Source of the DNA: Deuterostichococcus epilithicus
Taxonomy: Eukaryota; Chlorophyta; Trebouxiophyceae; Prasiolales; Stichococcaceae
Length of the DNA: 64,000 bases
Reading direction: 5' to 3'
Assembly: GCA_033439295.1 (NCBI GenBank)
Contig: JAVTLE010000015.1
Location: 930,001 to 994,000, forward strand
Shown: positions 20,201 through 62,900 of the stretch, piece after piece
How the letters are laid out: the number at the start of each line of letters is the position of its first letter
Numbering within the stretch: the first letter of the stretch is position 1
Translations under genes and position numbers: made by a program
The notes under the pieces: generated by a model
Databases searched by the model: none
The model's input: the letters and a program-made list of their open reading frames with translations, nothing else
Told to the model about the DNA's origin: nothing

Positions 20201-23200
20201 CTGTTCGCTAGCATTGGGCAGGAGGAAGTGGATGCAGGAGGGCTGACCTACGGAGACACGACAGGCCCAGGAAACGTGGGTTGCAAAGCAGGTGCCACGG
20301 TCATGACGATGTGCGGCACATTTGAAGCATGAGCCATTCGACAGAGTAACACGCAGTCACGAGTGCCGGGGGGGTGCTGGGCTGGTGAGCGTACTTTCGA
20401 TGTGCCGGCCGAAAGCGAGTGCACCTGCACTGGCGACATCGTGCGAGCTGGGCTGCTCTGTGGCGCCGTCCCCCTCATCACCTTCCCGCGGCGAGAATCC
20501 TGCAGGCGGCGCAGACTGAATGTCAGTGCTTGTCAGAACGGATGCGGAGGGCTTCAACAGCTGGCACAGACAAACACAGATTTCCACCCCGATGCAGGAT
20601 GTGAGGGTGCATGCAGGACCCCCTGTCTGACAACCACTGCCCGCCTGAATTGCAGGTGGGGCGCCCACGCCACGCGCCACAACCTTGCATGCGCCCAAGC
20701 AAGCGGGCGCTTTTCCATGTACATAATGGTGCCGCATGCCCCACAGCCGACAGAAGGTCTACCTCACAGCTGGCAGAAGGGGGTAAGGGAAGGAGGGGCT
20801 TCCGTCCCACAGCAGAAGGTGTGCACCAAGGATTTCTCCTGAAGTCCATAGCCCACTTGTCTGCCCCCTAAGCCTTCTTGAATCCCTGTAAATGCACGCC
20901 CGCCCCTGGACAGGGCGCACTGGTGCTGTGGACATTTCAGCTAGCACAAAGAGCGGCCCGTGAACTGGCAGATCGGTAGCGCCTTCTTTGAAAGGGTGCA
21001 CCGGCCAGCCGGCACAGAGAGCGCCTGGCGAACCCTACAAATTGGCAGTGCCTTTCTGGAAGGGCGCACCGGTGTTGGAGGGCATCTCCAGCTCGTCATC
21101 GCTGAAGCTGGCCAGCGACTCCAGCTGCTGGCACAGCGATATGCGCTCCCGCTCCAGCACCGTGTGCCCCTTGCCGATGACGCACTGCGCAGGTTCACGC
21201 ACAGGAGCCCGTCAGACGATGTCTCATCTCGCCTTCCTCATGTGGTGACCCTTAGCAGCCCAGAGAGCTTGCTCCCGCTCCAGCACCATGTGCCCCTGGC
21301 CAATGACGCGCTGCGCACTTCAACGCACAAGCTCGTTTCGGAAAACTTGCACTCGTTCCGTTCAGGTGACAGATGTCAGCCGGCACAGGCATGTGCCTCA
21401 GTAAGAATGAGATCTCGGCATGAGCTTGGCGCAAAGTGGCCAGCCGGAGCAGCATGCATGCGGCAACATCGGGCCCTGTCGCAGGGCAGACTGCCTTGGG
21501 TGCCAACAAAACAGTGCCAGCAATAGACGGCGAACAAGCCCCAAACAGGTGTTGGGTCAGCCGGCACCTGTCGAATCGCAACACCTATCCATTGCTAATA
21601 GGATGCTCAATGAACGTCTTGGTCTGTGAAGAGGAGCGAAACCTCCCGTGCGCTTACACCCACATGCTTGCGTTGCATGCACAAGTACAGGCACCATAGC
21701 CTGGAGCCTGGCAGTCCACACCAGAGGCACCGCGTACAGCTTTGAGTCACTGACAGGTTTGGAGCTCCGCGCCTTGTAGCTGACGATGCAGCCGGGCAGC
21801 AGCTTGGCGCCGGAGTGGATGACGGCGCCTTCCAGCACCAGAGCCCCCACCACCATCGCGCCGTCATGCACCGTGACGCGGTCGCCGATGTAGCTGTCCC
21901 GCACCACGCAGCCGCGCCCGATCTCGCACTCGCGACCGATGACGCTGGTCTCCACCTGCGGCACTGGATCTCATCAACACCTGGTGTTTGCTCGTCAAAA
22001 TTCCATCAGGCTGCACAACCTGCTGGTTTGCGAGGGGGTTTCAGGAAAGCTCGTGCTGGAGCGAAGCGCTCAGACTGGCACTGCATCTGGAATATGCTCG
22101 GCAGATGCAATCAGCTGCGGCGTGTCATGCAGAGGCAGCTGGGCACACAGGATGCCCACAGAAGCAGGGAAATGAAATGGACGCGCCAAACGAGCCAAGG
22201 GTTGTGACCCATCCTGGAGGCGAGGACTGTATGTATGGCAGTGGACCTGGGAGTCGTCCTCGATGACGGTGTGCGCGCCGATGCAGCTGTCGTGGCCGAT
22301 CACCGCGCCTCGCGCTACCGACACGTCGTGTTCCCTGCGGCATCGTTGCGCAGTGCTTGGTGATCGCCACCTATGCAGGGCGTGGGGCTCTCTGGTGGGG
22401 GCTCTCAAGGCGTTGCTGGATGCGTGCTTGCGGTTGCACTGTCACCACAGGCACAGGCTGGGCCGGTGGCCCAATCCATGAAGCAGGCTGATTCAGTGGC
22501 CGGCAACTCGACATTCCGATCCAGAGGCTGCTGAGGATGCTGCTGAGGATGTATGCTGAACCAGAGCACGTAGGCTGAACAAGGCCCCGCAGCCCTCGCG
22601 GCACAGTTGCAGCCCTCCTGGGAAGGCGGCTGCTGCCCCCCTGCAGCCGCTGCGCCGCGCCGCACTCGGGGGTTCACATCCAGGGGGGTCCTTCACGCAC
22701 CTGTACACGTTGCCCCGTGCAAAGCGGTAGGTGCTGCCGATGGCCCACGGCGCCGGCGCCGGCGTGTGCAGCACGTTGGTGTCGGGCACAAAGGGGAACG
22801 CCCACCGGCCCAGCACGTCTCGCGACACCTGCGGGGAAGCAGCTGTGCTTTCAAGACCGCGGCATGGGGATGGTGTCATGGCGGTAGGAGGATATCGGCC
22901 CAATGAGGGAATCAAGGATGCCAGCATCAGCCAGAGGAGAGTGCGCAGCAGACGGCAGAACCAGCTCAAGCGCCTCAGCGGCCGATCTGTCAGGGAAGGA
23001 ATCGCTGTCTTGACCAGGCAAACCCTGGAGACAAGAGCCGACACAGTAGAGCCCAGGGCAGCAGAGTACTGCACAACCGATGAAATGCATCCAGCACAGT
23101 CAATGAAGTGTGTCCACACAACACCTCCAGGAGTCACTAACATTCTGATAACGTGCAGCACTGCAGGCGTACAGGCTGACGACGCGCTGGGCACTCTTGC

Positions 23201-26200
23201 GGTTGTAACCCACAGCTTCGCTTCCTCTTTGCTTGCTCAGCAGAAGACCGAAACCAGGACACGCCGAGGGCAGGCAGGTCGGCGACGCCGGCCCCCCTGC
23301 AGCTGCTGTTCCAAGGCCTCTGTGCATGTTGGAAACACTCTGCCAAAACCGCAGCAAAGGACGACCTGCAGTGAGCACAGGGCGCACCGCGTCGTAGGCG
23401 CGCAGGTTGGCGACGCGCTCGGCGTACTCGGAGCGCCCCAGCTGGTGCACGAAGATCTTGTTGCCCAGCTCCTCCTCCGACAGCACCCCCGTCACAAACT
23501 CCCGCCGCACATTCTGCAGGGGGCCAAGAGGCAGAAGAGTTGACGAACAGGCTTGAGAAGCCAACGACCAAGCTCCTCCGACAGCAGCCCCATCACAAAC
23601 TCCCGCCGCACGTTCTGCAGGGGGGTAAGAGGCAGAAGAGTTTGCAGCAGGCTCGAGATGCCGCCGGCCAGCTCGTGCAACAGCGCCCTGTGGAGCACAA
23701 ACTCCTGCCGCAAGCGCTGCAGGGTGTGAGGCGTTTCCGCAGGCTTGATGGCGGACTTGAGAGGCACGTTCAGGGCGCCGCGCGCGGCAGGTGAGGCGCA
23801 AGCGTAGCACAGACAAGGGACGGGCCGACGGACTGGATGGCAGGGTTGCAGGGCGGCGCCAAACAGGGGTGGCATGCTGGTTCGGTCTTGCAAGCAGATC
23901 GGGATTTGCTCAGAGCATGTTCAACTTGTCCAAGTCTGCTCGTCACCTGGTAGTCGAAGTTGTCAGAAAACAGCATGAGAACCTCCGGCGCAGCGATGTA
24001 CACCTGCGCAGTCCACAAACATCATGTCGCTTCGAGTTTTCACTCCTCCTCTGCCCAGCGGGGGTGGGAACCGTCAGCACTGCAGTGAGTCAGGCTGCAG
24101 CCGCAGCCGGGCGCCCCCGCAGCCCAGGCCTTTCCCATGCATTGCGTCCCATGCATTGCGTCACGAATATCTAGTCCGAAAGCCCGCTGAGTCTTTCCCC
24201 CGGCCGGCCTGCCCCTCTGAGCTTACAGAACAGCACAGCTACATGCCCTCCGTGGCGGCGGCGCTCGGCGCCGGGAAACAGCAGAGTCCATAATCTGGAT
24301 GCGAAACCACCTGATGGGGTTTCTTGAATGCATCAATCATCACTTCGTTTCTATGCAATTTCAAGCGCCCACCTGACAGTCGAGCAAGTCGCTGCGAGCG
24401 GACAGCACGTCGTGCTCGCCAAACAGGCGCGCGTCCACAGCCAGGCGCGAGCGCTTGCGCCCGCCCGACGCCGCCAGCCCAAGGTCCTCGTACCTGCCAG
24501 AGAAGTTTTGCAGTGACAGGCATCAGCACTGACATTTGGTCGAACGTTAAAATGGCTTTGGTGCGCGTCCGCAGCCAGGCGCAGGCGTGCGGCGTCAGCT
24601 GCACGTTCCAGGTCCCCCTGTACCTGCTGACAGATCACAGTTTCAGATTCACAGCTTGATCAACATGCGACAAGACGGCGTCGTTGCACTGTAACTGCCC
24701 CCGACCTCGCCCAGCTGTGCGCAGCCCCGTGCGGCTGGGGCTGGCGCCGCAGCAGCCGCAGGCGCTTGTGTGACAGGCAGGTCCGTGATCTCCTAAGGTG
24801 ACACCCAGGAGCCGGCTTGCATCGGATGCGGCGGCGCGCACTTGAGGAGCTGCCCTGAGGCAGGGTTGATGACCACAGCCAGCTCGTCCTTGCCCAGCCG
24901 CGCGCGATGTAGCGGGCTCGCCGCCGGCCGCATCACCTGCACAGGGGAGCAGCCGGGACGGTGTGACACGCTTGGGGTGAACCATCAACGAGGGTCCGCC
25001 AGGGGCATCAGTCCCAAGCCCCACCCACAGCCCCACAGCGCAGCACGACCGGACTACGCAGCAGGGCGCGGCCATTGTTCGGTCCGCCAGCAGACTGGCG
25101 CGAGCCACATGCAGACATCCGGTCCAATCTCCCTGCATCAACCCCGGGGGGTCGAGACGCCCCCTGCGGGACCCCCAGCACACCAGGGTCTTTGAGTGTT
25201 ACATGGAGGAAAACAAGGAAAACAAGGCGCACCATAGTCAAGATGGCGAGCTTGTCCTTCTCACGGCGAATGCGGTGTGCCTTGACCGCCGCGCGCAGGT
25301 CCATGTTGGCCACCGTGTCACCCGTCACCTGCCCCACCACAGCCAGGCGGTCAGCATCAGCCACAACTCTCGGCAAGAATCTTGTAATAACTTTGCCTTC
25401 GGTTTGACATTCTCCATCCTGTCCATGTTGGCCAATGTCACACAGATGTCAGATCCTGACGGCAACTTGTGGAAATATGCAACAGAGGCATGGGGCTCTC
25501 TATCTTGTCCTCATTCATCCCGCCGGACTTGGCCTCGGGGCACGAGCACGGGCAATCGCAGGGGCGGCGGGAAGCAGAGAATTTGCGGATCGTGCGGGGT
25601 GCACAGGGATTGCAGGGTCTGCGGAATCTACAGCGCAGCAGGCTGGCATCCGGGTCAGGGCAGGGGGGAGGGGGCCGGCGAGGCGCCTTTTTTTCATCAT
25701 TGTATTTTGTGCGTCTCGCCGTGGACACGCTGTGAGCGCTGACGCCCCGCCAGGGCAGGCTGCACGGAGGCCGTCGTTCCTGGAAGGCAGGTCTGTTTCG
25801 AGCCCTGAGGGCATCACCAGCACGAAGTCGTTCTTGATGAGGTGCTTCTGGTCGATGAGGCGCAGCGCCTCACCCGCCGACGCGCAGTTGGTCGACACCA
25901 GCACGCTCACCTGCATGTGGACATGGGCCGCTCACACGGGGTTGTTGGCCCGTGGACAGGGAGCCGCTTGTGGCACCATCCAGCCGGTGGCTGCCAGCCT
26001 GCCGGAGCCGCGTAGGACGATTCGAGGCCGCAGTGCCGTGCGCAGCAGCGGCCGGGCGGCAGGGCTCTCCTCTCGATGGCCCGACTGCCAGGGTGCTGCA
26101 GCTCGAAGGGGAGAAGCGCAGCACAGGAGAGTCATGCAGCGTGTTTCACCGACCTTGCAGGAGCGCAGGCGCAGCCAGGGCCCAGCCTCCAGGTGCCGCC

Positions 26201-26981
26201 GCACTTGTGCAGCGTGCGCGCAGCAGAAAACTAGGATCTGTGCGGCACGAGCAGCAATGTTCAGATCCGTTCCTGTCGTTCACAACAGTCGTGCTCATTG
26301 CCTTCACACCTTCCCTGAGAACTCGGCCCTCAATCGTGTGCCTGGGCCTGCACGCGGCGCCACCAGAACGCAACGGACTGGCAGGGCTCAGCCGAGCACA
26401 GTGCACGGTTCCGCAGCTGCGCGCGTGAATCATCGCCACAGGCTGGTGCGGCACCGTCATCGCCCCTCCGCCGCCGCTGCTGGGCCTTCGGCGCTGCAGT
26501 GCGCGCTGGCGGCAACCGCAGCAGCGTCCATGCGGCCGCCCAGACATGCTGCTGCGCCACCTCTCAATAAGTAGAAGATGGTGGTGACAGGCAGGCGCCC
26601 ACCTCATCGACGCCGGAAGCAACCAGCCACTCCAGTGTGTAGTTGATGAGCGGCACGTTGACAAGCGGCAGCAGCACCTTCGGCTTCTCCACCGTCATCG
26701 GCCGGAAGCGCTGCGGCGACTCACCCCAGTCAAGCGCTAAGCGTGCAGAAGGTCACCAAGTGGGCATGCAGCGCCGCACGCACAGACGCTGACGCTGAGA
26801 TGGTACAAAATGCTCGGATTTCCTGGGCTTACGGCATTTCGTACCACCACTGTGTGTTTCAGGCTTATTACAGCCCAACGTATTGCAGTTTTGTTACCTG
26901 CGTGAAGGAGTCGGCCAGCAAGATGGCCGACAAAACATCCTTCGAGCTGTTGAGATCCGCGGACTTGCCGCGCGCCACCAT
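14256..26981 (-). CDS. Translation initiation factor eIF2B, epsilon (catalytic) subunit
   Basis: eIF2B-epsilon is the catalytic subunit of the guanine-nucleotide exchange factor for eIF2. Twenty exons join in phase (about 749 aa; family about 720): 26898-26981, 26603-26710, 26154-26237, 25818-25910, 25233-25328, 24842-24936, 24373-24493, 23947-24003, 23388-23513, 22701-22828, 22247-22334, 21755-21955, 21070-21184, 20425-20499, 19836-20002, 19150-19330, 15255-15409, 14863-14955, 14565-14672, 14256-14330. The N-terminus is a nucleotidyltransferase-like domain (LPLVNVPLINYTLEWL, FVLVTGDTVANMDLRAA). Hexapeptide-repeat (left-handed beta-helix) exons follow (VIGRECEIGRGCVVRDSYIG), and the C-terminus is a W2 HEAT domain (LKQLYDSDILAEDALLAW) with an acidic tail. 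The donor near 21755 could instead be GC at 21772, removing 18 bases. An extra in-frame exon near 19580-19632 is possible. Intron 16 (15410-19149) holds a whole gene on the other strand. Exons 9 and 13 have decayed partial copies beside them. Confidence 0.93.
16212..18668 (+). CDS. FSP1/AIFM2-like FAD-dependent NAD(P)H oxidoreductase, nested in an eIF2B-epsilon intron
   Basis: The family comprises flavoprotein NAD(P)H dehydrogenases; animal AIFM2/FSP1 reduces coenzyme Q and vitamin K at membranes and suppresses ferroptosis. Nine exons join in phase to 370 aa (AIFM2 is about 373): 16212-16309, 16466-16608, 16771-16916, 17065-17164, 17323-17426, 17614-17646, 17691-17852, 18145-18327, 18525-18668. 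Domains: N-terminal FAD dinucleotide fold (VVIVGAGPGGLSCAKAL, residues about 6-22), central NAD(P) fold (IIGGGPVGIEVAGE, about 143-156), FAD-binding motif NVFAIGDATNI (about 274) and the family C-terminus (GLFAGKTKADLGIK). It lacks the glycine at position 2 needed for N-myristoylation in the animal protein. Exon 6 is only 33 bases and the following intron only 44, the least certain part. A TGTAA motif, the usual green-algal polyadenylation signal, occurs about 165 bp after the stop. The gene lies antisense inside an intron of eIF2B-epsilon. Confidence 0.9.
20963..21079. repeat. Tandem copies of the eIF2B-epsilon exon 13 donor edge
   Basis: On the minus strand the donor segment gtgcgcccttccag is followed shortly by a diverged second copy (gtgcaccctttcaaag) and related flanking sequence. 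This is a short tandem duplication on the intron side of the exon 13 donor. Confidence 0.6.
21145..21330. repeat. Duplicated acceptor and 5' edge of eIF2B-epsilon exon 13
   Basis: The real exon begins at 21184 (minus) and reads CVIGKGHTVLERERIS. About 120 bp upstream in the intron (about 21265-21320) lies a second copy with its own ..gcgcag acceptor that would read RVIGQGHMVLEREQ and then diverge. The copy keeps the acceptor and about 45 bases of exon but not the exon's 3' half. Confidence 0.75.
23500..23732. repeat. Three tandem copies of the acceptor and 5' edge of eIF2B-epsilon exon 9
   Basis: The functional exon starts at 23513 (minus) with NVRREFVTGVLSEEELG. Two upstream copies, each preceded by an acceptor-like ctgcag at about 102-bp spacing (ctgcag near 23519, 23620, 23723), read NVRREFVMGLLSEELG and, more diverged, LRQEFVLHRALLHELAG. 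Both copies break off before the rest of the exon. Decay increases with distance from the real exon. Confidence 0.8.
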
Positions 26982-32115: not shown

Positions 32116-35100
32116 TCACTCCTTGTGCCGGTGCTGCTCCCCTTTGAGGCGAGCGGTGTCCACCTCCAGCGCGTGCGACTGCGCAAACTGCTCTATGCAG
32201 CCCACCACGAAGCTGCCCATGAACAGCAGCAGCACCGCCGACCAGGGGGTGGGAGCGAAGGACTTTAGGTAGGCGGCCGCTGCTGGGCCGCTGCTGAAGT
32301 GGCCTAGGAAGCGCTGGTGCCACCACCTGCGCGCATGCAGGGGGCGGCCGTTGGTCTGGCTTCGACCAGCTGGGTAGCAGTGGGTGTGCAAGCAAGGCTC
32401 GGTGTTGAATGGCCGACGGCAGGTAGTGCAAAATGAGTTGCGTGCCGCACTGCAAGGCCTAGATACCTCCAGCCAGCAAGGAGGAGCTTCTCTGCAATGC
32501 AACCAGGATATGCGCGGGCTTGTTTGCACTGCTGGAGGCCCATGGACCAGTCGCTGCTGTACCCGCATTCGCAGCTCTGGGTATGCAGTGGGAGCCCTCA
32601 CCGGCTGTCCGCGGCATGCGCGGCCGCGCGGCGCGCGACGCCGTCTTGGAAGCCGCTGATGCGGGCGTTGATGAAGCCGTGCAGCGCCGCCGCCGGCGCC
32701 ACCCGGCCGGGTAGGAAGGGGATGTGCGACGGCAGCCGCCGCTGCAGCCACGCGAGGATGGCGTCCCGCGACTCGCGCCGAAAGATCGCAACGAGCGCCG
32801 CCGCCTGCAGATTCACCTGCGGCAGCGAACGTGGCAGGAGGTGGAGGAAGTGTGGCAGCAGGTGTGGCGGCGCATTGCAGTCTGCCGGACCCTGCCTGTG
32901 GGCAATCGTCTGCCCCAGCGAGTGGGGAGCCATCGCGCCTCTGGGGTGTGGATGCCACCTGGGAGGATGTACAGTGCCAGCTGCGCACACATCGGCTGCA
33001 CACATCGGCTGCATGTGACTGTTGGCGACAGTCAGCAGTCAGGCTGTCAGCCAGCTGTGTGGCCAGACCACTATCTGGCAATTTGACCCCACACGATACG
33101 AGTAGAGTGATAGGTTGTACACATCATCAAGTGATGACTCATGGCAATCTCCAGCAGTACACCTAGATTAGTGAGGTCAGAGGATCTGAATGCGAAATCC
33201 CAGAGAACCGTGCATTGCAGGATCACAGATCAGGCGCGCAGCCTGTGTTGCATGGGCCTGATGCATCAGCGGCCGTGCCGCAACAAGACATACGGGTGGT
33301 CCACCCCACGCACCTTGATCAGGGCCTTGCCGATGAAGGTGGCGCCGAAGAACTGCCAGAACGGCATCTGGAAGTGGCCGCAGCAGATGCCGCACAGGTC
33401 GAACGCGGCGTTCGGCCACGCCGCCAGCAGCAGGATGCCCGCAAACCCGCGCGTCCGGATGAAGCCCGTCATCCACGACTGCATGCTGTCCGTGACGCGC
33501 GCTATCGCGCCGCCGCCTGCCCGGCCCTCCTTCTCGAGCTACGGCGCAGCACATGTGACTCGCTGTCAACGCAATCTCGGGGCAGGGGGCAGCTGGTCAC
33601 GTTTGGCAATCAGGGCACTGAGCCATCACGCCGCCACCCGCCCGTTTCTCCCTTCTCAAGCTGCAGCGGCAACACATGCGTTGTGCCGCCAGGGCGGCTG
33701 CCCTGCAGGCCGAACTTTCCTTTCTCTGCTATCGCATGCCCTTGAGGAGACTGCACTGCCGTGAGCCGCCCCGATACGCGCCTCCTTCGGCAGCTGCATG
33801 CGCGCCACAATTGACTGGCCAGAAATCTTGCGATGCTGCTGGTGCCTGCACGCAGTGCTGCTGACATGCAGTGCCGCATGAGTTCGCTCACAACATCGCG
33901 TCGACTACATCCCTGCCACAAGTGCGCAAGCGCTTGTGAATTCCGCATGTGGCCAGCTCACGGCTCGACCCTCACCGCGAGAGATTCCTCCATGCCAGAG
34001 ACCTTGCCGCCAGCCACAGAGGCGTGGAACGCCACCGCATACGGTGGAATTTCGCCGAAGGCAGTCCCTGCACCCCACAGCACCGCCGCCGGCATCACCT
34101 GCAGAGCACCAACAGCTGCCGAGTGTTGCCTCGTGGTGTGCAGTGACAAGGTCCGTCATCCGGATCCCAGTCGCAAGGCCACACGCAACTTGGTCAGCCT
34201 CCTTTCAAGCTGTGTTTCCATCCCCCTCAAGATTGGTCGACATGCATGTCGCGCCTCCTGCCACGGCAACGGCGGTGCGAGCCGGTGGCGGCTCACCTTC
34301 AAGAAGATGGCACCAAAGGTCACGTCGCCTGCGGGCGCCTCGTCGCAGCGAAAACCCTCGTGACTCCACCACATGTCCGGCTTCGAGTCGAAGGCCACGT
34401 GTTTGCACCGCTCCGCCGCCAGGCAGATCTGCATGCACCAGGGTTCATGGTAAAGGCCAGTGAGATCCGCATGTGAGTACTAACACACACTGCCTCCAGC
34501 AGCGCTCGCCATACCCATACCATTACATTGTCTCCCAAGGATGGCTTGCCAGCATGACTCAGGCTGCGAGCCAAGGCACATCGGATGATGCAGACGCTTC
34601 CTCTACGATGGCCGATTGCGGCACAAGGGTGTGGCCTCACATTCAGCTCACCTTCAGCAGCATGTGGGGAAAGAAAGACAGCACCCCCCAACTACATACT
34701 GGTGCCCGGGCCGATGAACGACAGCACGCCTCGAGCTTTCAAACCTTCTCTTTCCTTTTGAAACAGCCAGTCCTGATCACAGGAGCGGTCGTACCTTCAG
34801 CATGTGGGGAAAGAGGAACAGCAGCCCCGAGTGCATGCCGGTGCCCAGGCCGATGGACGACAGCACGCCGAGACCTACCCACCAGACGGCGTACTGCACT
34901 GCCTCCTCCAGCTCAGCGAGCTGCCCTGCCGCCGAGCCTGCGAAACGCACCACATGCACGGCACGCTCGAGTGTGGCGGGTCACAAGCTTCGGGTGGGAT
35001 CTGTTTCGCAGGAGACTATCGCATGTGTTGCAGTACGCTGCTCGTAAGCGCTGTGTTGCTCGGGCACCGAGGCCGCATTCCAGTTGGAACTCTGCCGAGT

Positions 35101-36469: not shown

Positions 36470-38410
36470 ATGCCGGTCGAGATATCCTACGCGCTGGTGT
36501 CACGAGGCGAGACGGTGCTCGCCGAGGAAAGGTGGGCCGCTGGTGCGGCACTGCGCATTCTTGCTTCGCTGGCATCTGTGTGCCTCGTCAGACACTGCCA
36601 CCTGATGTATTTCTGTGGCTTGCAGCGCGGTGTCCGGCAACGCCAATCTGGTGGCGCGCAAGATAGCTGAGAAAGTGCCGCGAGGCAATACGTGCGTGCG
36701 TTGCTGCGCAGTGCTGTGTGTGTGTCGGCGCGCTGCATTGCATGTTTGTTCGTATGGGCTTACAAAGTGAGTCCTGCAATACCGCTGTCGCAGGCGGGTG
36801 TCATATGCGCAGGAGGGGCAGCTGTTTCACGTGCTGGTCGCAGATGGCGTCACATTTCTGTGCATGGCTGACGAGGCGAGTGGCTTGCCTCTCAAGCCCT
36901 GCGCTGACGAGAATTGCATCCGAAGTGCCTCTCATGTTTCTTGTGCAGCTGAAATGACATGTCCAATACTCCGAATGCAGCCGCTGGGCCGGCGCATTCC
37001 GTTCGCCTTCTTGGAGGACGTCCGACAGCGCTTCTTCGATGAACACGCCGCCGAGACCGGCTCGGCAGAGGCGTTCTCCCTCAACGACGCCTTTGCGCCA
37101 GTCCTAGCGCAGCGCATGGTGCGCAGCTGTTGTTGCACCGTCGGAGGTAGAGATGACCCTAAGGCCGGTGCGGCATGCTCTGAACCACCGAGGAGGAGAT
37201 GCCTGCATCGCCATTTTGCAACACTGCGTTGGCCCTCAGCTCGCGCACTTTCCGCCGCAGAAAGAGCCGAGCTGACTGCCCGACTCAGTGGGCACCCGCT
37301 GAGATCCTGAACTGCATGCGCTGCAGGACTACTTTTCACACGACCCCAGCGCGGACGCCATCAACCGCACCCGCACAGCGGTGAATGACGTCAAAAATAT
37401 CATGATCGAGAACATCGAGAAGGTGGGCGCTGGACAAGGTAGCGGACTGCGCAGCATGCTTCACACACATCGCATGCTGCTGTGCACAGCTGCCGCATGG
37501 ATGCAAGTTATCTGGCCTTGCTGCATCTCATCTGGCCTGTTGGTGATCCACCGCACCCCAGGGACCGGCCTGACCGCAGAAGCAGGGCTGTCTGGGGTAG
37601 CTGAAACCTTTCCCTGTGGGCCATGTGGCAGGTGCTTAAGCTACGCACACACTTTGCTCGTAGAGCTGCCTAGCATTTTCCATCAGATGTCAAGAAGTAT
37701 GAAAACATGGAATGGTCTGAAACAGCAGTCGGCGGCAGGTGCTGAAGTGGGGGGAGTGGAAACAGCTGCTTAGTGTTGCAATCACAACCACGATTGAATC
37801 GAACCTGATGGGCAAGAGGTGCTGGGGTGGGGAAGCAGATACACGTGCTGGTGCACAAGACAAACATCAAGCAAGATGAAATTCTCGAAGACACCTCAGA
37901 TTTCTGCGCAGGTGTTAAAGCGGGGGGAGCAGACAGGGCTGCTCAGTGGTCTCATCCAGCATAAAAACCTCAAATGGGTTACGGTCCTTGTCGGCAGGTG
38001 TTGGAGCGGGGGGAGCGGATAGAGCTGCTGGTGCATAAGACGGATGCGCTGCAGGGGCAGGCATTCAGCTTCCGGCGGGAGACACGCCGCCTGCGCACCC
38101 AGATCTGGTGCGCCCCCTGGGCTCTCCCGGCTGCCATGCTGCCATGCCACCCGGCACCCGTGCGCTGCGCGGCTGCCAGCCATATGGCACCTCGCATGGC
38201 GATCCTCTGGCGGCAAGGAGCAGCAGCATGTGAGTGGGCACTAAGGCTTGCACAGGGCATGGACGGTGACTGCAGGTGTCACTCGAGGGACTCTGCTACA
38301 TTGTGTGCAGGTGGCGCAACGTGCGGCTGACGGCGGCCATCATCGCGGTGCTGCTGGTCATTGCGTACGTGATTGTGGCGATCACCTGCTCGCCTACGTT
38401 CCATTGCTGA
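36470..38410 (+). CDS. VAMP7/VAMP72-like longin R-SNARE
   Basis: Longin R-SNAREs drive vesicle fusion with endosomes, vacuole or plasma membrane. Seven exons join in phase to 217 aa, the usual family length: 36470-36531, 36626-36691, 36794-36875, 36981-37118, 37327-37422, 37998-38107, 38311-38410. Residues about 1-116 form the longin domain (MPVEISYALVSRGETVLAEE, then a PFAFLEDVRQRFF helix). The SNARE helix spans about 120-180 (INRTRTAVNDVKNIM, then LERGERIELLVHKTDAL); the central-layer Arg is the first Arg of ERGER (about 152). A single C-terminal membrane anchor (AAIIAVLLVIAYVIVAI) is followed by a short CSPTFHC lumenal tail. The exon 3 donor is GC (GAG|GCGAGT). Three decayed copies of exon 6's 5' edge precede the real exon 6. 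It is head-to-head with VMP1. Confidence 0.95.
37734..38045. repeat. Decayed tandem copies of the acceptor and 5' edge of R-SNARE exon 6
   Basis: The real exon 6 starts at 37998 (VLERGERIELLVHK). Upstream copies at about 37734-37775, 37812-37862 and 37905-37951 keep a gcaggtg or aggtgctg start and a ggggtgggga/agcggggggagc core. One also keeps the gctggtgcacaagaca part. Spacing is about 80-90 bp. All upstream copies carry disabling changes. Confidence 0.75.
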
Positions 38411-38561
38411 GAGACGGAGCCCAGCACGGCGCGGGGATGGCAGCGTGTGGCGCGGTCGGTCCCCAGACGGGTCAGGCAGGGGCCCTGCAGCTGAACGTAT
38501 TTGATCGGCCGTTCGTTCAGGCGCAGCCGCTGTCCAGATTTCCGGCGGTAGCAAGGCGCAG

Positions 38562-38594
38562 TCAGCCCGCCCTCAAGCGCTGAGGGCGGGCTGA
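38562..38594. other. Perfect inverted repeat: 14-bp stem, 5-nt loop
   Basis: The arms (tcagcccgccctca and tgagggcgggctga) are perfectly complementary with loop agcgc. It lies about 150 bp after the R-SNARE stop, at the start of the lower-GC region. A second hairpin of the same geometry is at 52459-52491. Confidence 0.85.
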
Positions 38595-44200: not shown

Positions 44201-47200
44201 TTGTTGGCCAGCTCCTGCCAGCAGCCTGCGGCACGAGCACCAGCATGTCAAGATCAGATCGAGGCGTGCATGCCCCTCGAAAGCTCAGCCGGCCTTAAGT
44301 CTATCATCGGTTCATCCGCACAAACCGAAGGGGGAACGCCTTGCCACAACCACGTAAACAACACGCACAGCGCCAACCCACACAGTTCCGATCTGCCGCG
44401 CCAGTCCACAAACAGCGCGGATCCAAGCGGGTGCTGTTGCTCGAAGGGTTTAGGGTTTGGAGTGGCACCTGCGCCGCGCAGCTGGGCCATGTAGTCGCGC
44501 CACAGGCCGGGCCCCCGCAGCGTCACGAAGGGGTCCTCGAAAACCATGTCCTCCGCCACCAGCCCGGCGTCTGCCAGCCGCCGGTGCGGCTCGTCCGGCG
44601 CCTCGTTCAGGTGCGCCCTGCGCATGCATCGAGTTTCGAAACTGTCGAATGGCACTCGTGCATCATGTCTCCCCCCGCCAGCCTCGCGGCCGCCAGCCGC
44701 CGGTGCGGCTCGTCCAGCGCCTCGTTCGGTGTGCGCCCTGCGCATGCATCGAGTTTCGAAACTGTCGAATGGCACTCGTGCATCATGTCTCCCCCCGCCA
44801 GCCTCGCGGCCGCCAGCCGCCGGTGCGGCTCGTCCGGCGCCTCGTTCGGGGTGCGCCCTGCGCATGCATCGAGTTTCGAAACTGTCGAATGGCACTCGTG
44901 CATCATGTCTCCCCCCGCCAGCCTCGCGGCCGCCAGCCGCCGGTGCGGCTCGTCCGACGCCTCGTTCGGGGTGCGCCCTGCGCATGCATTGAGTTTCGAA
45001 ACTGTCGAATGGCACTCGTGCATCATGTCTCCCCCCGCCAGCCTTGCGGCCGCCAGCCGCCGGTGCGGCTCGTCCGGCGCCTCGTTCGGGGTGCGCCCTG
45101 CGCATGCATCGAGTTTCGAAACTGTCGAATGGCACTCGTGCATCATGTCTCCCCCCGCCAGCCTCGCGGCCGCCAGCCGCCGGTGCGGCTCGTCTGACGC
45201 CTCGTTCGGGGTGCGCCCTGCGCATGCATCGAGTTTCGAAACTGTCGAATGGCACTCGTGCATCATGTCTCCCCCCGCCAGCCTTGCGGCCGCCGGTGCG
45301 GCTCGTCCGGCGCCTCGTTCGGGGTGCGCCCTTTGCAGCAGCATGGCCGAGGCTCAGTCATCGCTTCAGAGGGCCGGTGCGACACCCGGCCAGCCCGAGC
45401 CCAGCTGCGACGTGGACACACGAGCACGAGGGACGTGCTGTGCGTCTGCGACCAACCCTGGTGGCCACTGTCCGCCAGTGCAGCCGCCCTCTGGCTTCGC
45501 ACGCACTCCGGCGCTGCGGATCGGCGCTTCCGCTGCGCTCTCAAGAACGCATCCCCCGGCTGACCTCTCTGCCATCCTCCGCTTGATCAGGCGGCAGGGC
45601 CCGGGTGCCGCTGAGCTCCAGCGCAACCGGCGCAGCACGTGCCTAGGTGACCCACAGGTGGCAGGGCCAGGGTTGTGCTGGGGGCTTGGCGCACCGGCGC
45701 AGCAGGTAGGTGACCCACTGGGCGCGGTCCCACTGCGCCTGCACATCGGGCGGCAGGTGCGGCGCCGGCCGCACCTGCTCGATGTCCTCGTACGTCACCG
45801 GCACCCGCGAGTACGGCTGCCAGCCTGCAGTCGAAGGAACACCACAACCTTCAACGAGCTAATGACACGTCGAATCCTTAGCCATCCCTGTCGTTTCAGG
45901 GGGTCCGACCACTCCTCCAGGTGCTACGATCAAGGTACGCTCTGTCCCATACTTTGCTTGTCCATCGCCGGCAGGCCCCACACAGTCCGACGCCGGCCGT
46001 GCAGCGTCCGTCGGTCATGCGAGCTCGACGGCTGCGCGTCGCCGACGGGGCCACGAGGCTGCAGCCGCAGCCGCCCGTCAGTCGAGTCAGGGACCAGCAG
46101 TGACCAGTGACCGGGACGCGGATCAGGGCTTCCGGCGGGCGGATGTTAGGGTTTAGGGCGGGCGTTTAGGGCGCACCGGCGTCCATGTCCCGGATCTGCT
46201 CTGTTGTCAGCTTGCGCTTGCGGCGCGGCAGGAACTGCGCCTCGTAGCGGTCGATCAGTCCCTGGATGCGAGCCTTGAACTCGTCTGCGTCCTCTGGCTC
46301 CACAGTCACCTGCCGGATCGCAGATTTCGAACAGGATTTCGACAGATCCGGCAGGTCACGGGCTGCACGCTCCTGCTACGAGCACCCTCCTCCGCGCCTC
46401 CGGCTCCACTGTCACCTGACTTGTGGGACTAACAGGCCAACATGAAGGTTGTGACCTCCTCCCTGCTTGCTGAGGCAGCGCGCACGAGCCCCCGTCCATG
46501 AATGCGGACACTCAGCGCTGGTGCGGCAGCCTCGAGCCGCCAGAAACCCTGAACAACACCTCTCGTGGGGCCCAGGCAGCCGCCTGATGTCGAACAAGCA
46601 GTGTGCAGGGCGCACGTTCTCGTCCACCAGCTGGCCGCCAGATTCCAGGACGGAGAGCGCCTCGGCCACGCCCTCGCCCGCGGTAAATTCCTCATGGTCA
46701 CCCGGCAGCGCCTCGTCATCTGGCACAACCACAGCGGGAGCATGTTTGATATGTCCTCGCCCATGGTGCACTCCTCCTCGTCCCCTGGCGGCGCCTCGTC
46801 ATCTGGCCATAAAAAGGCCAAGTCGATCCGCCAGCACGGGCGGAGTTCAGTATGTAACTCATGGCGACGCCTCGTCGTGGCCAGCACAGGCGCCGCCGCA
46901 GCCACCGCTTTCCATCAAGAGCACGACTTCGGCCAGCAGCCATGACTTCTGCGTCAACCAGCCTGGACGCGCGATGTTCGCTCAAGCCAGAGTCCTGAAG
47001 CCTGGCTTTCTGGCCGTACGCACCGCCGTCTTCGAAGGCGGAGGGCCGAGGCGGCCCCGCCGGCGTCGCCCATGGCCCGTCCGCCAGCGGATCGTCGTCC
47101 AGCTCGCCGGTCGATGTGGGGCCCTCGTCCTCAGCGCCGTCTGCACAGCACGAATGCAGAGCGCCTCGGTGCTGCGGACCCTTCTGAATGTCTCCCTCAC

Positions 47201-47948: not shown

Positions 47949-47996
<48 letters not shown>

Positions 47997-50137: not shown

Positions 50138-53100
50138 ATGCTGCCGCTGGCACAGCGGTCTGCCGCGAGGCCGCTGGCCGCAGCCGCGACGTCGGGCCCG
50201 CGGACAGCGCGCCCAGAGCCGCAGCCGCAGCAGCAGGGCGGCGTGCAGGCGCCCGGGGGTCCTGCAGNGGCGCNGCCTCATGTCCCGGCGCAGCGCCTGC
50301 CGCCGTCGCGCCGCCTGCCCGGCCGATTGGTGCACCCGCCGCCAAAGCCGCAGGAGCTGCCGGAGTTGACGCTGTCACAGGCGGGTCCCGGCCCCCGCAC
50401 TGTGCTCAGCCCCGCAGCCATCACTTGGTCGCAAGGCCGCACTTGCTGGGTGCAACTTTGTCAGGAGCGTGCATGGGCCGGAGTTTTGGTTGAGATCCGA
50501 AAACGATGCAACTGCACATAGCCTCTTGGCGCATCGAGAGCAGCGCTGGAGGCGTGTTCTGGGCCTTTTGCTGCCGTCGGCTCCAGGCATGCTCACGCAC
50601 CGCAGTGCCGGGTGATCTACGTCAGCACCGCGGTGGAGGTGGACTGGTGGGCCCATCGCTTCCTGGCGGACCCGCACCTGCCCGTCGTGGGCTTCGACAT
50701 CGAATGGCGCGTCACCTTTAAGACAGGCAAGCGCACTGCTGTGCTGCGCGATGGCGGTGGAGGCAGATGCCTGCCTCTCATCTCATCTCATCCATTGGGT
50801 GTGCTGGGATGAAGTACATCATGCTGTCGGATGCCTGCTGACCTGCAGCTGCTACCAGCTCTGGCCCTTCCATCCCAAACAGACCTGCTTCTTCCGAAGC
50901 AAGCGTACCTGGGACCGTTCAGTTCACCAGCGTCCTGATCCAGCTGCATGCAATGCGCAGGCGAGGTGCCACGGCCGGCGGCACTGGTGCAGCTGGCCTA
51001 CCGGCGGTGCGCCCCCGCCGCCGGCCAGCCGCCCTACACCTGCGTGCTGCTGCACGTGGCGGCGTCGGGGCTGACGCCCGGCCTGCGAGCGCTGCTGCAG
51101 TCGGGCCATCCGCTCAAGGTGCTGTTACCGCAACGGACCGCCGCCGGGACTTTGCCGCTGCTGGCGCTTGTCGAGCTGCGCGCTGCTCACTGCGTGCCTG
51201 ATCGTCTGCACACACGGGCCAGCTGCAACGCATGAGCACACGGGACTCGACAACACTCAGAGTTGCGATTGCGAGTCTGGTAGAACTACTGCCAAATGGG
51301 ACACAGGCGGGCGTGGGCATCCACGGAGACGGCCTGAAGCTGCGCCGCGACTGGGGCATTGCCCTGGGGGGCGAGGTGGACCTCTCGGATGCGGCGCTGG
51401 CCCGCGGCGCCGGCTGCGCCGACGACGCCGTCAAGTGGGGCCTCGCCGGTGTGCGACACAAACCCTGAACCCTCACGGCGTCGGCGTCGAGCCGTCTTGC
51501 GCCTTGTGGATAGGGCATGACCTCCGCAGCCGACCACACAGGCTGAGGCCCCGGCAGCGAGCGCCTCGCTCGTGCAGCTGACCGGTTGCCGAGTCGCAGG
51601 CGTGCAGCCTGACCGAGGGCGGGCAAGCGGTTGCTCTGGAGGGATTGTGTGCGTGCAGACCTTGACCTCCTGGGAGCAGGCGCTGTGCTGGGCAAAGGTA
51701 GTGCTCTGATGGACGGCGTTGCAACACAACGCATCAGGTAGTACAACTGAGCAGCCAACCGCCTCTGATTTGCGTCAGGAGACCCCGCAGCAAGCATCGA
51801 GAATGTGAGCAGCAGGCGCTGCGGCGGAGCCATCAAGCCGCGAACTGTACATCAGCAAGGAGTCGCTCTTGCACGAACCGCTGGTGTTGCGGCGCAGGCC
51901 TGGCGGAGAGGGTGCTGCGGGCGCGGCTGGCGAAGCAGCAGGCGCTGCGGCTGAGCGACTGGGAGGCGCGGCCGCTGTCGCCGGCGCAGGCAGCGTACGC
52001 CGCGCTGGACGCCCTGGCCTGCCTGCGCATCCACGAGGTGGGTACCAGACCAGCCCACCATCTCCTGACCATCTTTCAAAAATGATTTGATATGTAAAGG
52101 GCGTGCCACCATTTCCAGGCCGTGCATTGGACGCGCTGGCCTGCCTGCGCATCCGGGAGGTGCGCCCGCCAATTGTTTGGTACCGCGGAACCCAAGAGCC
52201 ACAGCTCTGACAACCCCCTTTGAAGCGTCATACCGATTGTGCCCTCGAGACCGCATTTGACGCCCTGGCCTGGCTGCACATCCATGAGGCGCGCCCAGAC
52301 TGGCAGAATGTGTCGCAATTCTGAAGCCTGTCCTGGTACATACCAGTCGCTCACTCAACAGAAGACGAGCCGGCGCGGCTCGACGCGGTTGCGGGTGTTG
52401 TCTGTACAGACGTGCCTACCTGCACGCTCATGGTTTGACGCCGGCGCTGCTGAAGGTCGCCGGGTGCAGGGATTAAGTCCCTGCACCCGGCCTCTTGTGT
52501 TTTGGCAGGGGTATATCGAGGGACTAAACCCTCAGCCCTCAATCACCCCTATTCCTCGTCGAATTTGGCCCAGGTGACCTATGCAACCTGTCAGTCGATT
52601 GACGGACGCAGCGCCCTGCTTTAATTTACTTTGTCTTCCCAGCAGGCGCTGCAGCAGATGCCCGTGCTGCAGTCTGGGGTGGACGCCAGGGAGGCAGCCG
52701 CAGCTGCTGCCGCGGCGCAGGCGCAGCACGGCCCGCCTGCAGCGCCGGCGGCGGTGTCAACAGAGGCTCTGGTGCCGGCACTGCCCGCCCCCATCCAGCT
52801 GCAGCCAGCCAAGCTTGCCGTGTACCGCATGTTTCATGAACAGGTATTTCTCAAAATGAAAAGGCCTTGGTTCGCAGCGCTAGCCCTGATTCTCAGTGGG
52901 GATTTGGTGTAGCCCGTGCTTGGCTGTTGTTGAATCTGTGCCTGGCCCAGTGCAGCATCGTATGAAGGGTTTAAGTAGAAGCCTCTGTGTTGCAGGGCGG
53001 GAGCGTGGCAGCCATCGCGGCGGCCAGGCGCATCCAGCCGTCCACGGTTGAAAGTTATCTGGCCGAGGCGATCACTGGCGGGCACGCCTACTGCTGGGGC

Positions 53101-57700: not shown

Positions 57701-58931
57701 CGACGCTGTAGGCGGCGATGCCGCCGATGCCATTGGAGCGCAGGTAGCGGAGTGCCGTCCGAAGCTCCTCCGTGTTCTCCCCTGCAGTTCGTCATGTGCC
57801 AGGACGTCTTCGAGCAGGCATGCCGGCAGGCTATGATCGCCAAGGCTCAAAGCAGGCATGCCGGCAGGCTTGAAGCCTTCCGCATCGAGATCGTGCATGA
57901 CTGGCGAAGGCGGTGCAGTGGTGGACTCAAAAGAATCGGTGTGCAACAAAGCTTCGCTGTGTTGCAAACCGAGGCTGCAAGGGAATCATAGGAAGCCTCG
58001 CCTGCACAGAACTGCCGGAAGAAGGTGCGCTTCACGATGGCATTGGTGAGCGTCTTCCCAAAGAGCGCCTTGGAATACCCGAGCAATGCGTCCGCGTTTC
58101 GCACCAGCGGCTGCACCGTGCAGATGAATTATCAGCCGACCTGATGGACTGATTTGCTGGCAGTGTCAGCACTCCAGGGCAGCAGGGGTGCCCAGCCGGC
58201 GGAGGATGAGCGGAGCAAAACTCAGCCAAACCTGCTTCCCCTGTCAAGTTCTACACCTGAAAGACATCTGACATGCATCTCAGCACCACGGTGGATGCAC
58301 CTGGACGGAGCACAGGGAGAAGACGGCCAGGGAGCGCAGCATGGCGCCGCTGCTGTGCCCGCCGAAAGCGGCCTGCGCATTGTTGAAATTCAGCGGCTGC
58401 GGCAGTGGCTCCTGCAGGTTTCGCTGCTGCAGGATATCTGTCGGCTCGTCGACCGAGGACACACGCTCCTGTGGGTCGTGAGCAAACAGTAGCAGGTGAG
58501 GGTTTCAGCGGCATCATCGGCACAAAACACCCAGATATCTACGATGCCACATTGAGTGGCCCAGCGTCGCCGACATAACTTGTCAAAACGGATGGATTAC
58601 GCGCTACGCGTGTTGAACGTGCGGCTAGTGCAGCATACGGTGAAGCTCCTGTGGCGATGGTTGGGGTTTTTACAGTTTTGAACGTTTTGACACCCGAGCG
58701 CGCGCAAATGTGCCCCCACTGGACTATTTCGCATGTGGCGATCTCAGATACACTCACCGCTACTGCGAATACCGTTTGTGAGGTGAATGACGTTGTCAGA
58801 GCAGGCAGCGCCGAGCTGACAATGTTGGGCCGTGATGCTGCAATGGGGAATGCCGATCGACAGCCAGGGCGAGACCAACCATTCTCAGACGTTGCTCGTC
58901 TAGCTGCCAGCAAAAGCAAGCGCTGCGCCAT
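54749..58931 (-). CDS. Proline dehydrogenase 1, mitochondrial, without EF-hand
   Basis: Proline dehydrogenase is an FAD enzyme oxidising proline to pyrroline-5-carboxylate in mitochondria. Twelve exons join in phase to 524 aa: 58758-58931, 58301-58468, 58002-58110, 57633-57781, 57323-57409, 57106-57174, 56705-56779, 56270-56418, 55812-55973, 55357-55561, 55059-55117, 54749-54917. The first exon (MAQRLLLLAARRATSENG) looks like a mitochondrial transit peptide. Family landmarks are LNFNNAQAAFG, GIGGIAAYSVEDD, RLIVDAEHSYFQPAI, GAKLVRGAYMLLERERA, VASHNQASV and YLPYGPVDDVMPYLIRR. Compared with ProDH2 it lacks about 100 residues including the EF-hand; VSDSITGNAGK runs straight into the later helix. 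Three donors are GC (after 58002, 57633 and 55812) where ProDH2 has GT. Regulation cannot be read from the sequence. The tandem arrangement implies duplication. Confidence 0.92.
57811..57870. repeat. Direct repeat of 20 bp in a ProDH1 intron
   Basis: The block agcaggcatgccggcaggct occurs at 57811-57830 and 57851-57870, 40 bp apart, in the intron between exons 3 and 4. It is a short tandem duplication unrelated to an exon edge. Confidence 0.8.
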
Positions 58932-59950
58932 TGATTGCTGCGCTCCCGGAAAGTGCAAACGGGGTCCAACACAGCGACTGCAGCGATGGATCTCAAGCCA
59001 GCAGCAGCGCGATATGAAGCTTCAGCCAGGAGGATGGGGCTGTTTGCAGTGCTGGTGCAGGCTAGGAAGAGTGGCCTACTTGGCCGTTGTTGAATTCGTC
59101 TCTGCCAAGGGTATCCTCATGCCCCCTGATGACAGTCCAAGAATGTGCTGATGGCGTGATGGGGCTACATGTCAAAGGTGTTCCGTTTGAAAGGGAAGAT
59201 TCGTGTGATCTCAGAACCTGACTACACCGACTGACGGTGCATGCAGGCGAGGACATGCACATGCCTTACGTCCTCCTGTCCTTTCAGTCTGCACAGATGC
59301 TGGTGGCAAGCGACAATGCAGTGCCTCATTGCGCGGGTCCTCGAGGCTACTTTAAAGAAAGGAAGTCGAGGCAGGCCCCTGCCCAGACACGTCTTGACAG
59401 TCCTGAGTGTCAACAGCACGCGACAGCTAGAAGACTTATCTAAGCAAGAAAGGACGCATCCGCAAGACCGATGCACCTGACCACCAAGCGGACGGTGGAC
59501 CCCCGGAAAGGACGCAGCGAGGGCAGCCATGTGTGATGACCGCAAAGGCTGTGCCAAGTCGGCGGCTCAAGGCCGGCAGCGGCAGGCAACATGCAGCAAA
59601 GCGAGGTACTCCAATCAATTTCTGCACACATGCACCGCCCAAAGACAGTTCCGTCATTCAAGATGAAGCTGAATCGTGCCCTGGTGTGCCTGGAGAAGAC
59701 AGAGGTGTTGTGGGTTTTCTACACGATGCTGATGACGGCGGCCGGGCTCCAACCGCTGTCAGTCAGCCATGGCATGGTGTGGGCCCATCCAGCAAACAGC
59801 CGCCCCGATGCGGCATGCACAGCGGCACGCCCGCGTTACGTCGTCAGCATGGTGTTGATCGTCCCAGCCCTGCGCCAGACCGCGGCAGGCGCCGCGGGCA
59901 CCCAAGCCAGACATATGCCGTCGCAGCCGCCTGCTGCTGCCGATGCCTTT
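58932..59950. other. Intergenic region between the two proline dehydrogenase genes
   Basis: About 1 kb containing the ProDH1 promoter and the ProDH2 3' UTR. No exon, RNA gene or mobile element is recognised. It shows no obvious copy of ProDH coding sequence. Confidence 0.45.
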
Positions 59951-62900
59951 TCAGTAAGGGCTGCGGCTGCCGACAGGTGAGGCGGTGTTGACGGCAGTGG
60001 CCGTATCGGCTGCGCCAGCACTGCTCGCCGAGCTCGGCGGGTAGAGCACTCTGCCGCGTCCGGTCACGGCCTTGGTGAAGCGGCGCCACAGCTCTGAGCG
60101 CAGCAGGCGCATCTCGTGGCCGACGCCGCCCAGCATGTCGCTGTTCTCCTGCGCCCTGCGGTAACAAGCAGACCAACGAGCTAAAATAGTTTTCTGGGGG
60201 AGGACCAAAAACGGTGTTCCGACAACACATGCCTGCACACCACTGCCAATTGGTTTTCGAACGAAACCCTAAACCCTAAACAGAAACCCGCATATAAGAA
60301 TCAGTGAGTTATGTACGTACCTCCTGATCAGGTACGGCATGACCTCGGAGATGGGCCCAAACGGCACGTACTTGTACCCCTGCAAGACAACGGCATATCT
60401 GTCAGCATAGGAGCACGTTAACACGCTAGCAGTAGAAGGTCCAGGCCGCTTGCATATGATGCATCTTCAGGCGATCTTTGCGCGCTTGCACCGCCACTGG
60501 TGCTGAGCCCTCACAAGGCTCAAGCCTGACCCAGCAGCTGAGGGTGAAATGCGCACCCTGCAGCTGCTGCAGTGCACTGTGCCCAGCAGCAACGAGTCCT
60601 TCCGCAGCCGCTGGTCCTGAACCTTTCCAACACCGGAAAAAACGCACCCGGTAGCCGTTGCGGCCGAGCGTGAAGGTCAGGTGGTCTGCCATGCCCAGCA
60701 GCTGCCCGAAGAAGACGCCGTTCTTGTTCGCCTCGATGCCCAGCTGGCCCATGAGCGTGACGGTCGCCTCAATGCTGGCCTGGTTGTGCGTCGCCACCAT
60801 GACCTCTGCGCCCTCGCCGGCGACGTGCTCCAGCACCTCGGCGACGCACCTGCGACGGCGGCGGCAAAACCCTGTCGGATGAGACCCTATCAGGCGGGGC
60901 CGATCCGTCGGCGACTCGCACTGCAGGGCACACCCCCGGGACCACCCTGCCTCAGCTGGCTGCTGGGCTGCGGCAGCGCACGGGACATCGAGTACCTCAT
61001 GCAAACGCACCGAGCCCAAGCAGAGACCAGGTTCAAGCCGCGAAGCGCACCGATTGTAGTTCAGGTGTGTGTCCTCGATGGACTCGTGGATGGGGGAGGG
61101 ATAGCCGGACTTGGCGGCGCGCTCGCGCTCCAGCACCATGTAGGCGCCCCGCACCAGCTTGGCGCCAAAGAACCAGCCCTCCCGCCGCGCCCGCTCCAGG
61201 TCCATGACAAGCCTGCGGTCAAGGGTTCGAATTTCGCAAGGGTTTGGGGAAACGGGAAATGGGAAGGTCGCAGGTTGAGCCGCAGGCGGAGGCCTCAAAG
61301 TAGTAGCCCTCGCGCCGCGCCCGTTCCGGTCCCATCACCAGCCTGCACGTGTGCCAAGCGTTAGGAGTTTTCGTTGCCTGTTTGTGGCACGAGAAGGCTC
61401 CAGCCCGGCAAGAAGCCGAGAGCAACGTCTGCAACGTCCGCGGCAAGGATGCGATACCAAGAGAAGCCGGGCCGCTCAGGCTGCTGAATGTCTGCCTCCT
61501 GCAGCAGCACGCCTCCAGTTGGCTCGGTGTAGGCAGCGCAGAACCAACACTTCAGGGTTCCGCCGTTGGCACACGCACCGCTCGTGGGAGTCCTTGAGGT
61601 AGCACTGGTACGTGTTGTAGATCATGGGCTCCTCCTTGTTGTAGCGCCGCTGCAGCTCCACCGCCGCATGGTTGATGGCCGGCTGGAAGTAGCTGTGCTC
61701 CGCGTCAATCATCATGCGCACGTTGGACTGCGAGCAGGGGCGCACTGGAAGTCAACGGCTTTGGTGACAGAGTAGCCACTGGCTGGTGGCCGGCTGGAAG
61801 CAGGAGTGCTCTGCATTGATGGTCATGCGCATACTGGACTGCGCGCCAGAATGTGCGAGGCATCGGAGGTTGTCTCGATGGTTGCAAACTGTAAGGTCGG
61901 TACTTCGTGCACACTGTGCCGCCGCCACCTGCCGTGTGCAGCTTGCTCGAGTGGCAGCAGCTGCGACGCTGACAGCAGGCCTCTCCTGGCAACGGCTCCC
62001 GGCCGGCCGCAGCGGATGTCTGGGATCCGGGATTCATGCAGGTTATGACCGCAGATTCAAAAGAGAGCGGATGAAGGCGCCCACCTCCGCGGCGACCTCG
62101 GCAAGGCGCGACAGCCGCCCAATCATGTTGTGCAGCAACTCCAGTTCCAGCTCGGTGAGCGCGGAGCGCGACACCGGGCCCGCCACCCGGCAGTGCTTCA
62201 CCAGCAGAGGGATGTCGTTCAGCTTGAGGCGCTGGCTCCAGGACAGGTAGTCCACCACGCCCGCCCGCCGCATCGGGTCTGCACAGAACAACAGGTAGCA
62301 AAAGGCTTGACCCGAGGCGGAGCTTGGCCTGCGACATGCGCGCCTGTGATGGTGAATTATCCTGTCTGAGGTCGCTGCACCTCAGCATGCTGCACAGCAC
62401 ACAGCATCATCATGAGGCATCGTAGTCGTTGCCGACAGGACCACCTTGGCAGAGCCGGAGTTGCGGCCCGCTTAGCATGCCTGCCTTTCAGTGAAAGCGG
62501 CGGCAGGAACAGTGCAGCAGCAGAAGAAGTAGCGTTCCAACATGCCGACCTGAGCTCTCGTGCTCCAGCGCATTGAAGATGTCCTGCAGGCGCTCTGGCG
62601 TGCCGTCCGAAAACAGCTCACCATACACCTGCGAGGTTCAAAATGGGACCCTTGAGCCGAGGCCGCAACGCCCACCGGCTGATCGAGCTTGTGCACGGCG
62701 CTGGCGCAGCTTGTGCACAGCACTGGGCGCTCAGCATGTGGCTCTCGACTCTGTCGCTGCTTGGCAGTCGTCAAACAGCCGCATGCGCCTGTGCCACGGC
62801 TGCCGCACCTTCTCGAACTCGTCGCGCGTGACAACGCCGTTGAGGTCCTCGTCGAACCGGCGGAACAGGTTGTGCACCGACACCAGGCTGTCCGACACCC

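Follow-up and report, generated by a model that had tools for sequence, protein, structure and literature searches.

Background

Direct repeats at or near intron borders are known from several systems, and each is compared here with copies of exon edges that lie in introns of the green alga Deuterostichococcus epilithicus. The copies were described in an earlier note on a 64-kilobase (kb) window, which is the whole stretch analyzed (positions 930001–994000 of contig JAVTLE010000015.1, called C13).

New introns in Daphnia have internal direct repeats of 4–17 base pairs (bp) that are interpreted as scars of staggered double-strand breaks (PMC4202315). The algal introns are similar in that they have direct repeats, which may likewise be scars of staggered breaks, and show a passive trend to greater length. 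They differ in that the copies are 20–75 bp exon edges at a fixed spacing and at the same border, and the introns show no sign of recent gain. The border direct repeats of Rogers and Bendich pair the 5' and 3' ends of one intron and are 4–30 bp, with a mean of 11.4 (PMC11782384). These are also near splice sites and are also explained by breaks; in the alga, however, the two copies occupy a single border rather than bracketing the intron.

In mouse and human cells, tandem duplications the size of the overhang arise when CST-Pol alpha fills in complementary 3' overhangs and the ends are then joined (PMC8355091). Overhangs of 43 bp were sufficient, and one class of products has an additional mutation. 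Fill-in and end joining could give such overhang-sized duplicates in the alga as well. That work concerns induced breaks, however, with no link to splice junctions and no spacer of 30–100 bp. In the horse, interstitial telomeric repeats have been inserted at staggered breaks, with duplication of the target and the exposed GG in register; such duplication is rare (3/66 loci) and the sites appear random (PMC7215372). At one algal locus, termed L043, a direct duplication likewise encloses a telomere-like insert, with the GG in register, but such spacers are few in the alga. The literature searched, which largely left out subscription journals, gave no account of copies of exon edges with a fixed spacing in algae.

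Exon-edge copies and controls

It is confirmed that the exon-edge copies are real and that they extend past the window. In a sample of 304 kb, 43 of 759 exon edges (~6%) have a recognizable copy in the neighboring intron. The sample is ~0.65% of a 46.79 megabase assembly of one genome in 21 contigs, and consists of the window, 100 kb each from contigs C1 and C5, and 40 kb from contig C9. CCCTAAA repeats are present at contig ends. In the edge test the 60-bp exon edge was compared with the adjacent intron at a score of at least 28, and 270 of 1029 edges were removed as low complexity. With the same edges, there are no matches to the reverse complement (0/759), the reversed intron (0/759) or foreign introns (0/2277), and one to the far-side intron (1/694). 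At a score of at least 40, copies are found at 10/485 acceptors and 9/476 donors; the reverse-complement, foreign-intron and far-exon-end controls are all 0, and a mid-intron control gives 4/359.

A second comparison bears on the intron-internal control that the earlier note had set beforehand as its refuting test. Copies are present at 42/721 edges, compared with 11/915 and 6/557 in two sets of intron blocks matched against deeper intron and 0/388 for exon interiors matched against intron (Fisher test: 1e-7, 4e-6 and 1e-8, respectively), and this control did not refute the pattern. Eleven of the 17 intron-block matches have periods of 19–67 bp and represent a separate population. The other six, three from each set, have periods of 102–144 bp and are all inside introns already bearing an edge copy (C1 19596/19411, C1 79389, window 23513, window 52037 and C5 59035). 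Tiling of the whole sample gives 67 pairs, of which 31 are exon-intron and 10 intron-intron; in the other 26, each copy falls on a predicted exon. At a period of 80–150 bp there are 27 exon-intron pairs versus three intron-intron pairs; one of the latter lies within a junction array, between two of its copies, and another is exon-like in sequence. Label shifting, applied to the 45 of 58 pairs that passed a complexity filter, shows 17 junction-spanning pairs versus 10.1 expected (p 0.009) and five pairs with both copies noncoding versus 14.4 expected. Start and stop edges, which represent coding borders without a splice site and number only 53, have copies at 3/53 with a score of at least 24 and at 1/53 with at least 28.

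Members of the scored pairs differ by ~5–30% and are therefore not assembly duplicates. The units of the array at 44545–45332 are ~95% alike, and there an assembly duplication may be involved.

The gene models come from a gene finder written for this analysis and trained on the alga's own sequence (donor CAG/GTGCG, acceptor YGCAG/G). Over the first 264 kb it predicts 592 exons with 551 introns; for the full 304 kb the numbers are 684 and 638. The predicted proteins read cleanly and have matches to Pfam families. In the window these are Synaptobrevin/Longin (R-SNARE), Pro_dh, LbH_EIF2B and DNA_pol_A_exo1 with HTH_40; the VTT domain match of a VMP1-like gene is under the Pfam cut-off. An Rfam scan of the window gave no match. 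Self-alignment together with these models bears out the recurrence of copies at many junctions of the genes that had been named, and shows local direct repeats in all four sampled contigs; edge copies are also present in the three contigs outside the window, in line with the proposed genome-wide habit. The clear cases in the window are as follows.

19294..19456, minus strand: eIF2B-epsilon acceptor 19330; edge 19294–19331, copy 19419–19456, period 125
21145..21329, minus strand: eIF2B-epsilon acceptor 21184; edge 21145–21203, copy 21271–21329, period 126
23472..23724, minus strand: eIF2B-epsilon acceptor 23513; ~2.5 units of 101 bp, with the intron part also repeated
33535..33668, minus strand: VMP1-like acceptor 33538; copy near 33611–33668, period 122, with an indel
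34658..34869, minus strand: VMP1-like donor 34795; copy 34658–34730, edge 34798–34869, period 139–140
37733..38029, plus strand: R-SNARE acceptor 37998; copies near 37733–37770, 37817–37861 and 37908–37943, edge 37994–38029, period ~86
44545..45332, minus strand: acceptor 44617 of a large unknown gene; 6.6 units of 120 bp
46280..46418, minus strand: acceptor 46309 of the large unknown gene; copy 46387–46418, period 106–107
46672..46807, minus strand: acceptor 46719 of the large unknown gene; copy 46755–46807, period 83
52000..52296, plus strand: donor 52037 of an exonuclease gene; edge 52006–52040, copies 52128–52162 and 52253–52296
61166..61346, minus strand: proline dehydrogenase (ProDH) acceptor 61212; edge 61166–61216, copy 61296–61346, period 130
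61669..61846, minus strand: ProDH acceptor 61727; edge 61669–61735, copy 61780–61846, period 111

Cases at 24493, 25328 and 51898 are weaker or have the block 16–45 bp off the junction. Outside the window, the 1.2 kb at 78.4–79.5 kb of C1 has three separate exon-edge pairs in one gene, which is mitochondrial-carrier-like by eye. Among other repeats in the window, a predicted coding exon has 4.2 in-frame units of 39 bp (29306–29470), and a pure GCT repeat of 15.7 units codes for a glutamine tract of the large unknown gene (47950–47996).

Spacing and shape of the copied block

The copies are ~115 bp off, on the intron side, alike at donors and acceptors and in direct orientation only. Thirty-two of the 43 have a spacing of 89–142 bp. 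A longer query gives 56 matches among 976 edges, 42 of them at 80–150 bp, and within this range the mean spacing is 112 bp at acceptors (standard deviation 15) and 117 bp at donors (standard deviation 17). Spacing in these matches shows no correlation with exon length or intron length. The copied block consists of 20–75 bp of exon edge across the sample. The window copies, at 83–140 bp and with 30–75 bp of exon, agree with the spacing and exon length claimed earlier.

Ungapped identity was compared over 41 pairs. On the intron side it is near background at positions -50 to -10 and reaches 0.58 over the five bases nearest the exon. On the exon side it is 0.6–0.7 across the first 45–50 bases and is lost by +60 to +70. 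In pairs where one copy is wholly noncoding, 22 of 30 have no more than eight intron bases in the block, and three of the other eight are multi-copy arrays. Simulated plain duplications followed by neutral decay show so few intron bases in 11, 11, 5 and 1% of cases by identity class (binomial 2e-15); the simulation takes the gene models as given and sets indels at 0.15 per substitution. Plain duplication thus fails to explain the edge of the block. The earlier description, in which a junction block with its adjoining intron is simply repeated in tandem, does not hold for most pairs: the block is mostly exon only and ends at the splice site, and the spacer is unlike the neighboring intron in the majority of pairs (see below).

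The AG or GT dinucleotide is in register by eye in 10 of 18 window copies, and the number rises to 15 of 18 when shifts of no more than 6 bp and a single GC in place of GT are tolerated; the claim that copies carry the splice dinucleotide is supported. Decay with distance, also claimed, is seen at donor 52037 (91% then 85%) and by eye at 23513, but not at 37998 (86% near, 84% far) or in an array in C9.

In the array at acceptor 44617, the start of the outermost copy coincides exactly with that of the exon-edge sequence; it follows an AG, and the sequence before it is unrelated. Its inner units have a common 45-bp spacer that is unlike the sequence before the outermost copy. The units are one base longer than the true exon and for this reason are out of its frame. 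A search of the whole genome with 44545–44900 matched only the array itself.

Spacers and telomere-like sequence

Spacers were analyzed in 25 pairs with a period of no more than 150 bp and a score of at least 40, outside one coding repeat. In 17 of the 25, including the two highest-scoring pairs, the spacer is unlike the intron beside the copy; a stricter anchored test finds similarity (z>2) in six of 25. The spacer at acceptor 21184 matches in part the intron preceding the copy. A layout of duplicate, non-homologous insert and duplicate is present in high-scoring pairs and in L043. Comparison of the 25 spacers with the 304 kb revealed no common family, only telomere-like matches and weak matches at chance level.

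A telomeric origin of the filler was pursued because the spacers of the two highest-scoring pairs resemble telomere repeats. Donors that run straight into telomere-like repeats, with an exon-edge duplicate beyond, are found at two telomere-bearing donor loci:

L043, 1486–1567: a 24-bp duplicate (exon edge and six donor bases) flanks ~34 bp that starts TTTAGGG right after GG
L042, 1478–1634: a 28-bp duplicate 129 bp distant

Compared with words of the same composition, telomere words are enriched near exon edges, clustering within 50 bp, and not beyond 100 bp. AAACCCT is the top of 140 same-composition words in introns of the 304 kb, occurring 57 times where the non-telomeric words average 16.

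Age of the copies and intron length

The 32 alignments of copies, two rows of which are one C5 pair viewed from both sides, have 207 differences, distributed over codon positions 1, 2 and 3 as 49, 71 and 87, and gaps are present in 6/32. These alignments show no sign of coding constraint, and the copies look like neutral decoys. Two ProDH genes are head to tail on the minus strand at 54749–63957, and their introns in matching places are unalignable. Exon-edge copies are found only in the upstream gene; the introns of the paralogue are without them. At 22 sites that separate the paralogous exons, the copies have the base of their own gene in 13 cases, that of the paralogue in eight and neither in one. 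There are also 15 private changes at 78 sites common to the paralogous exons. By these differences, the two ProDH copies are old.

Introns with a copy have a median length of 369 bp, compared with 236.5 bp for those without. Among introns of at least 200 bp the medians are 380 bp with a copy (38 introns) and 271 bp without (619), p 3e-7, which agrees with the earlier claim of longer introns. The gap is smaller above 260 bp (384 versus 332 bp, p 0.012). Copy-bearing introns are thus longer by about one period.

Intron gain by AGGT duplication requires that the intron length be equal to the duplicated unit. It is similar to the present case in that exon sequence near splice sites is duplicated, but its signature, an intron 3' end that equals the upstream exon end or a 5' start that equals the downstream exon start, is not found here. 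Only 2/637 introns score at least 30, and both are artefacts: C1 78417–78484 is a mispredicted copy and C5 27644–27703 is a CAG-rich simple repeat. The suggestion of such intron gain in the earlier note was not supported, and this model was rejected.

Origin of the copies

The splice-site boundary, the unrelated spacer, the direct orientation and the mirror symmetry of donors and acceptors fit a DNA-level event bounded on one side by the exon edge. We tentatively favor the possibility that the copies are echoes of staggered-break repair anchored at exon edges. The break would extend from the exon edge to a point 20–75 bp inside the exon. Both sides would be filled in, filler DNA would often be added, and the ends would be joined to give exon edge, filler and exon edge. 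Splicing to the outer site would leave the protein unchanged and the intron longer, and since the protein is unchanged the event would survive. The unit could then be multiplied by unequal exchange, as may have occurred at 44545–45332, and the copies would drift afterwards. The filler may sometimes be telomere repeats, as if telomerase or CST-Pol alpha fill-in acted at the break. Selection against exon damage would leave copies on the intron side; it does not explain the stop at the splice site or the scarcity of intron-only events.

Several points weigh against this origin. The repair model leaves the placement of breaks at splice junctions unexplained, and the spacers and duplicates vary less in length than random breaks would suggest. 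The gene models are ab initio, and all events are read from one genome and hence are unpolarised. Telomere-like spacers are a minority, 4/25 at p<0.05 (binomial 0.03). Telomere-bearing donors have copies at 2/7, L042 and L043 (p 0.056 versus a base rate of 5.7%), and the other five have no copy of their own edge. Telomeric runs of at least nine bases have flanking repeats at 2/19, compared with 29/713 random intron points (score at least 26). Telomere words in introns exceed same-composition words only 1.7-fold, a comparison that corrects the overstated excess of the raw count (197 observed versus 43 expected). Telomere filler as a general cause is reduced to a minority lead by the spacers, the runs and this small excess. 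Finally, in 8/25 pairs the spacer is similar to the neighboring intron at p<0.05, as is expected of plain tandem duplication.

These eight pairs support an unlikely but serious alternative, that the copies arose by random tandem duplication of the ordinary kind, in units of ~115 bp. Duplications that touch an exon would be visible longer, since selection acts on one of the two copies, and their intron part would decay twice as fast. Full-unit tandem arrays do occur (23472–23724 and C1 98.6–98.9 kb), and old pairs lose intron similarity in any case, as the unalignable introns of the ProDH paralogues illustrate. However, the simulation keeps more than eight intron bases in 89–99% of detected cases, whereas this is observed in 8/30, and young pairs of 90–93% identity have unrelated spacers (C1 78485 and C1 35969). 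Uniform duplication would also make young intron-intron pairs more common than junction pairs, but intron-only pairs with a period of ~115 bp are nearly absent. Plain tandem duplication across the junction was thus rejected for most pairs, with the whole unit including the intron repeated in 8/25 and not in the other 17. A short introner-like mobile element that favors splice junctions and makes a long target duplication would produce the layout of duplicate, insert and duplicate, with the splice site in use inside the insert. The absence of a family among the 25 spacers searched in the 304 kb makes such an element highly improbable.

Selection could instead maintain the copies, if decoy sites or exon-like sequence near the junction regulate splicing or intron retention. 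The dinucleotide in register in 10/18 window copies, the narrow spacing that is the same at donors and acceptors, and the survival of copies beyond the adjoining intron sequence in some arrays are consistent with this. Such a role is nevertheless improbable, given differences over all codon positions, a dinucleotide that is gone or shifted in 8/18, and the private changes in the ProDH copies. A gene-prediction artefact, in which genuine alternative or repeated exons are taken for copies, is a shade less probable still. Some copies are indeed called exons by the gene finder (the 26 exon-exon pairs, and C9 33.7–34.1 kb), and the 120-bp unit at acceptor 44617 is a multiple of three. Most periods, however, are not divisible by three, copies run into unrelated sequence at their ends, the 44617 units are one base off the true exon and out of frame, and exon edges and interiors should not then differ in the controls.

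If staggered-break repair is the origin, a further and more doubtful idea concerns the splice junctions themselves. They may be break-prone in DNA in both directions, perhaps where RNA-DNA hybrids end. Introns would then grow ring by ring at their edges, with each repair pushing an echo and ~115 bp outwards, so that the deep intron would be the oldest.

Implications for intron growth

Long introns are usually attributed to transposons and slow drift. The exon-edge copies suggest a mutation process that strikes exon borders and lengthens introns. If this is true, it would be an exon-edge process with a fixed step of ~115 bp that leaves a dated fossil for each event, and intron growth would become countable. 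Splice sites would then have a consequence at the DNA level, and the decoy sites would represent natural tests of how the spliceosome chooses between two nearly equal splice sites.

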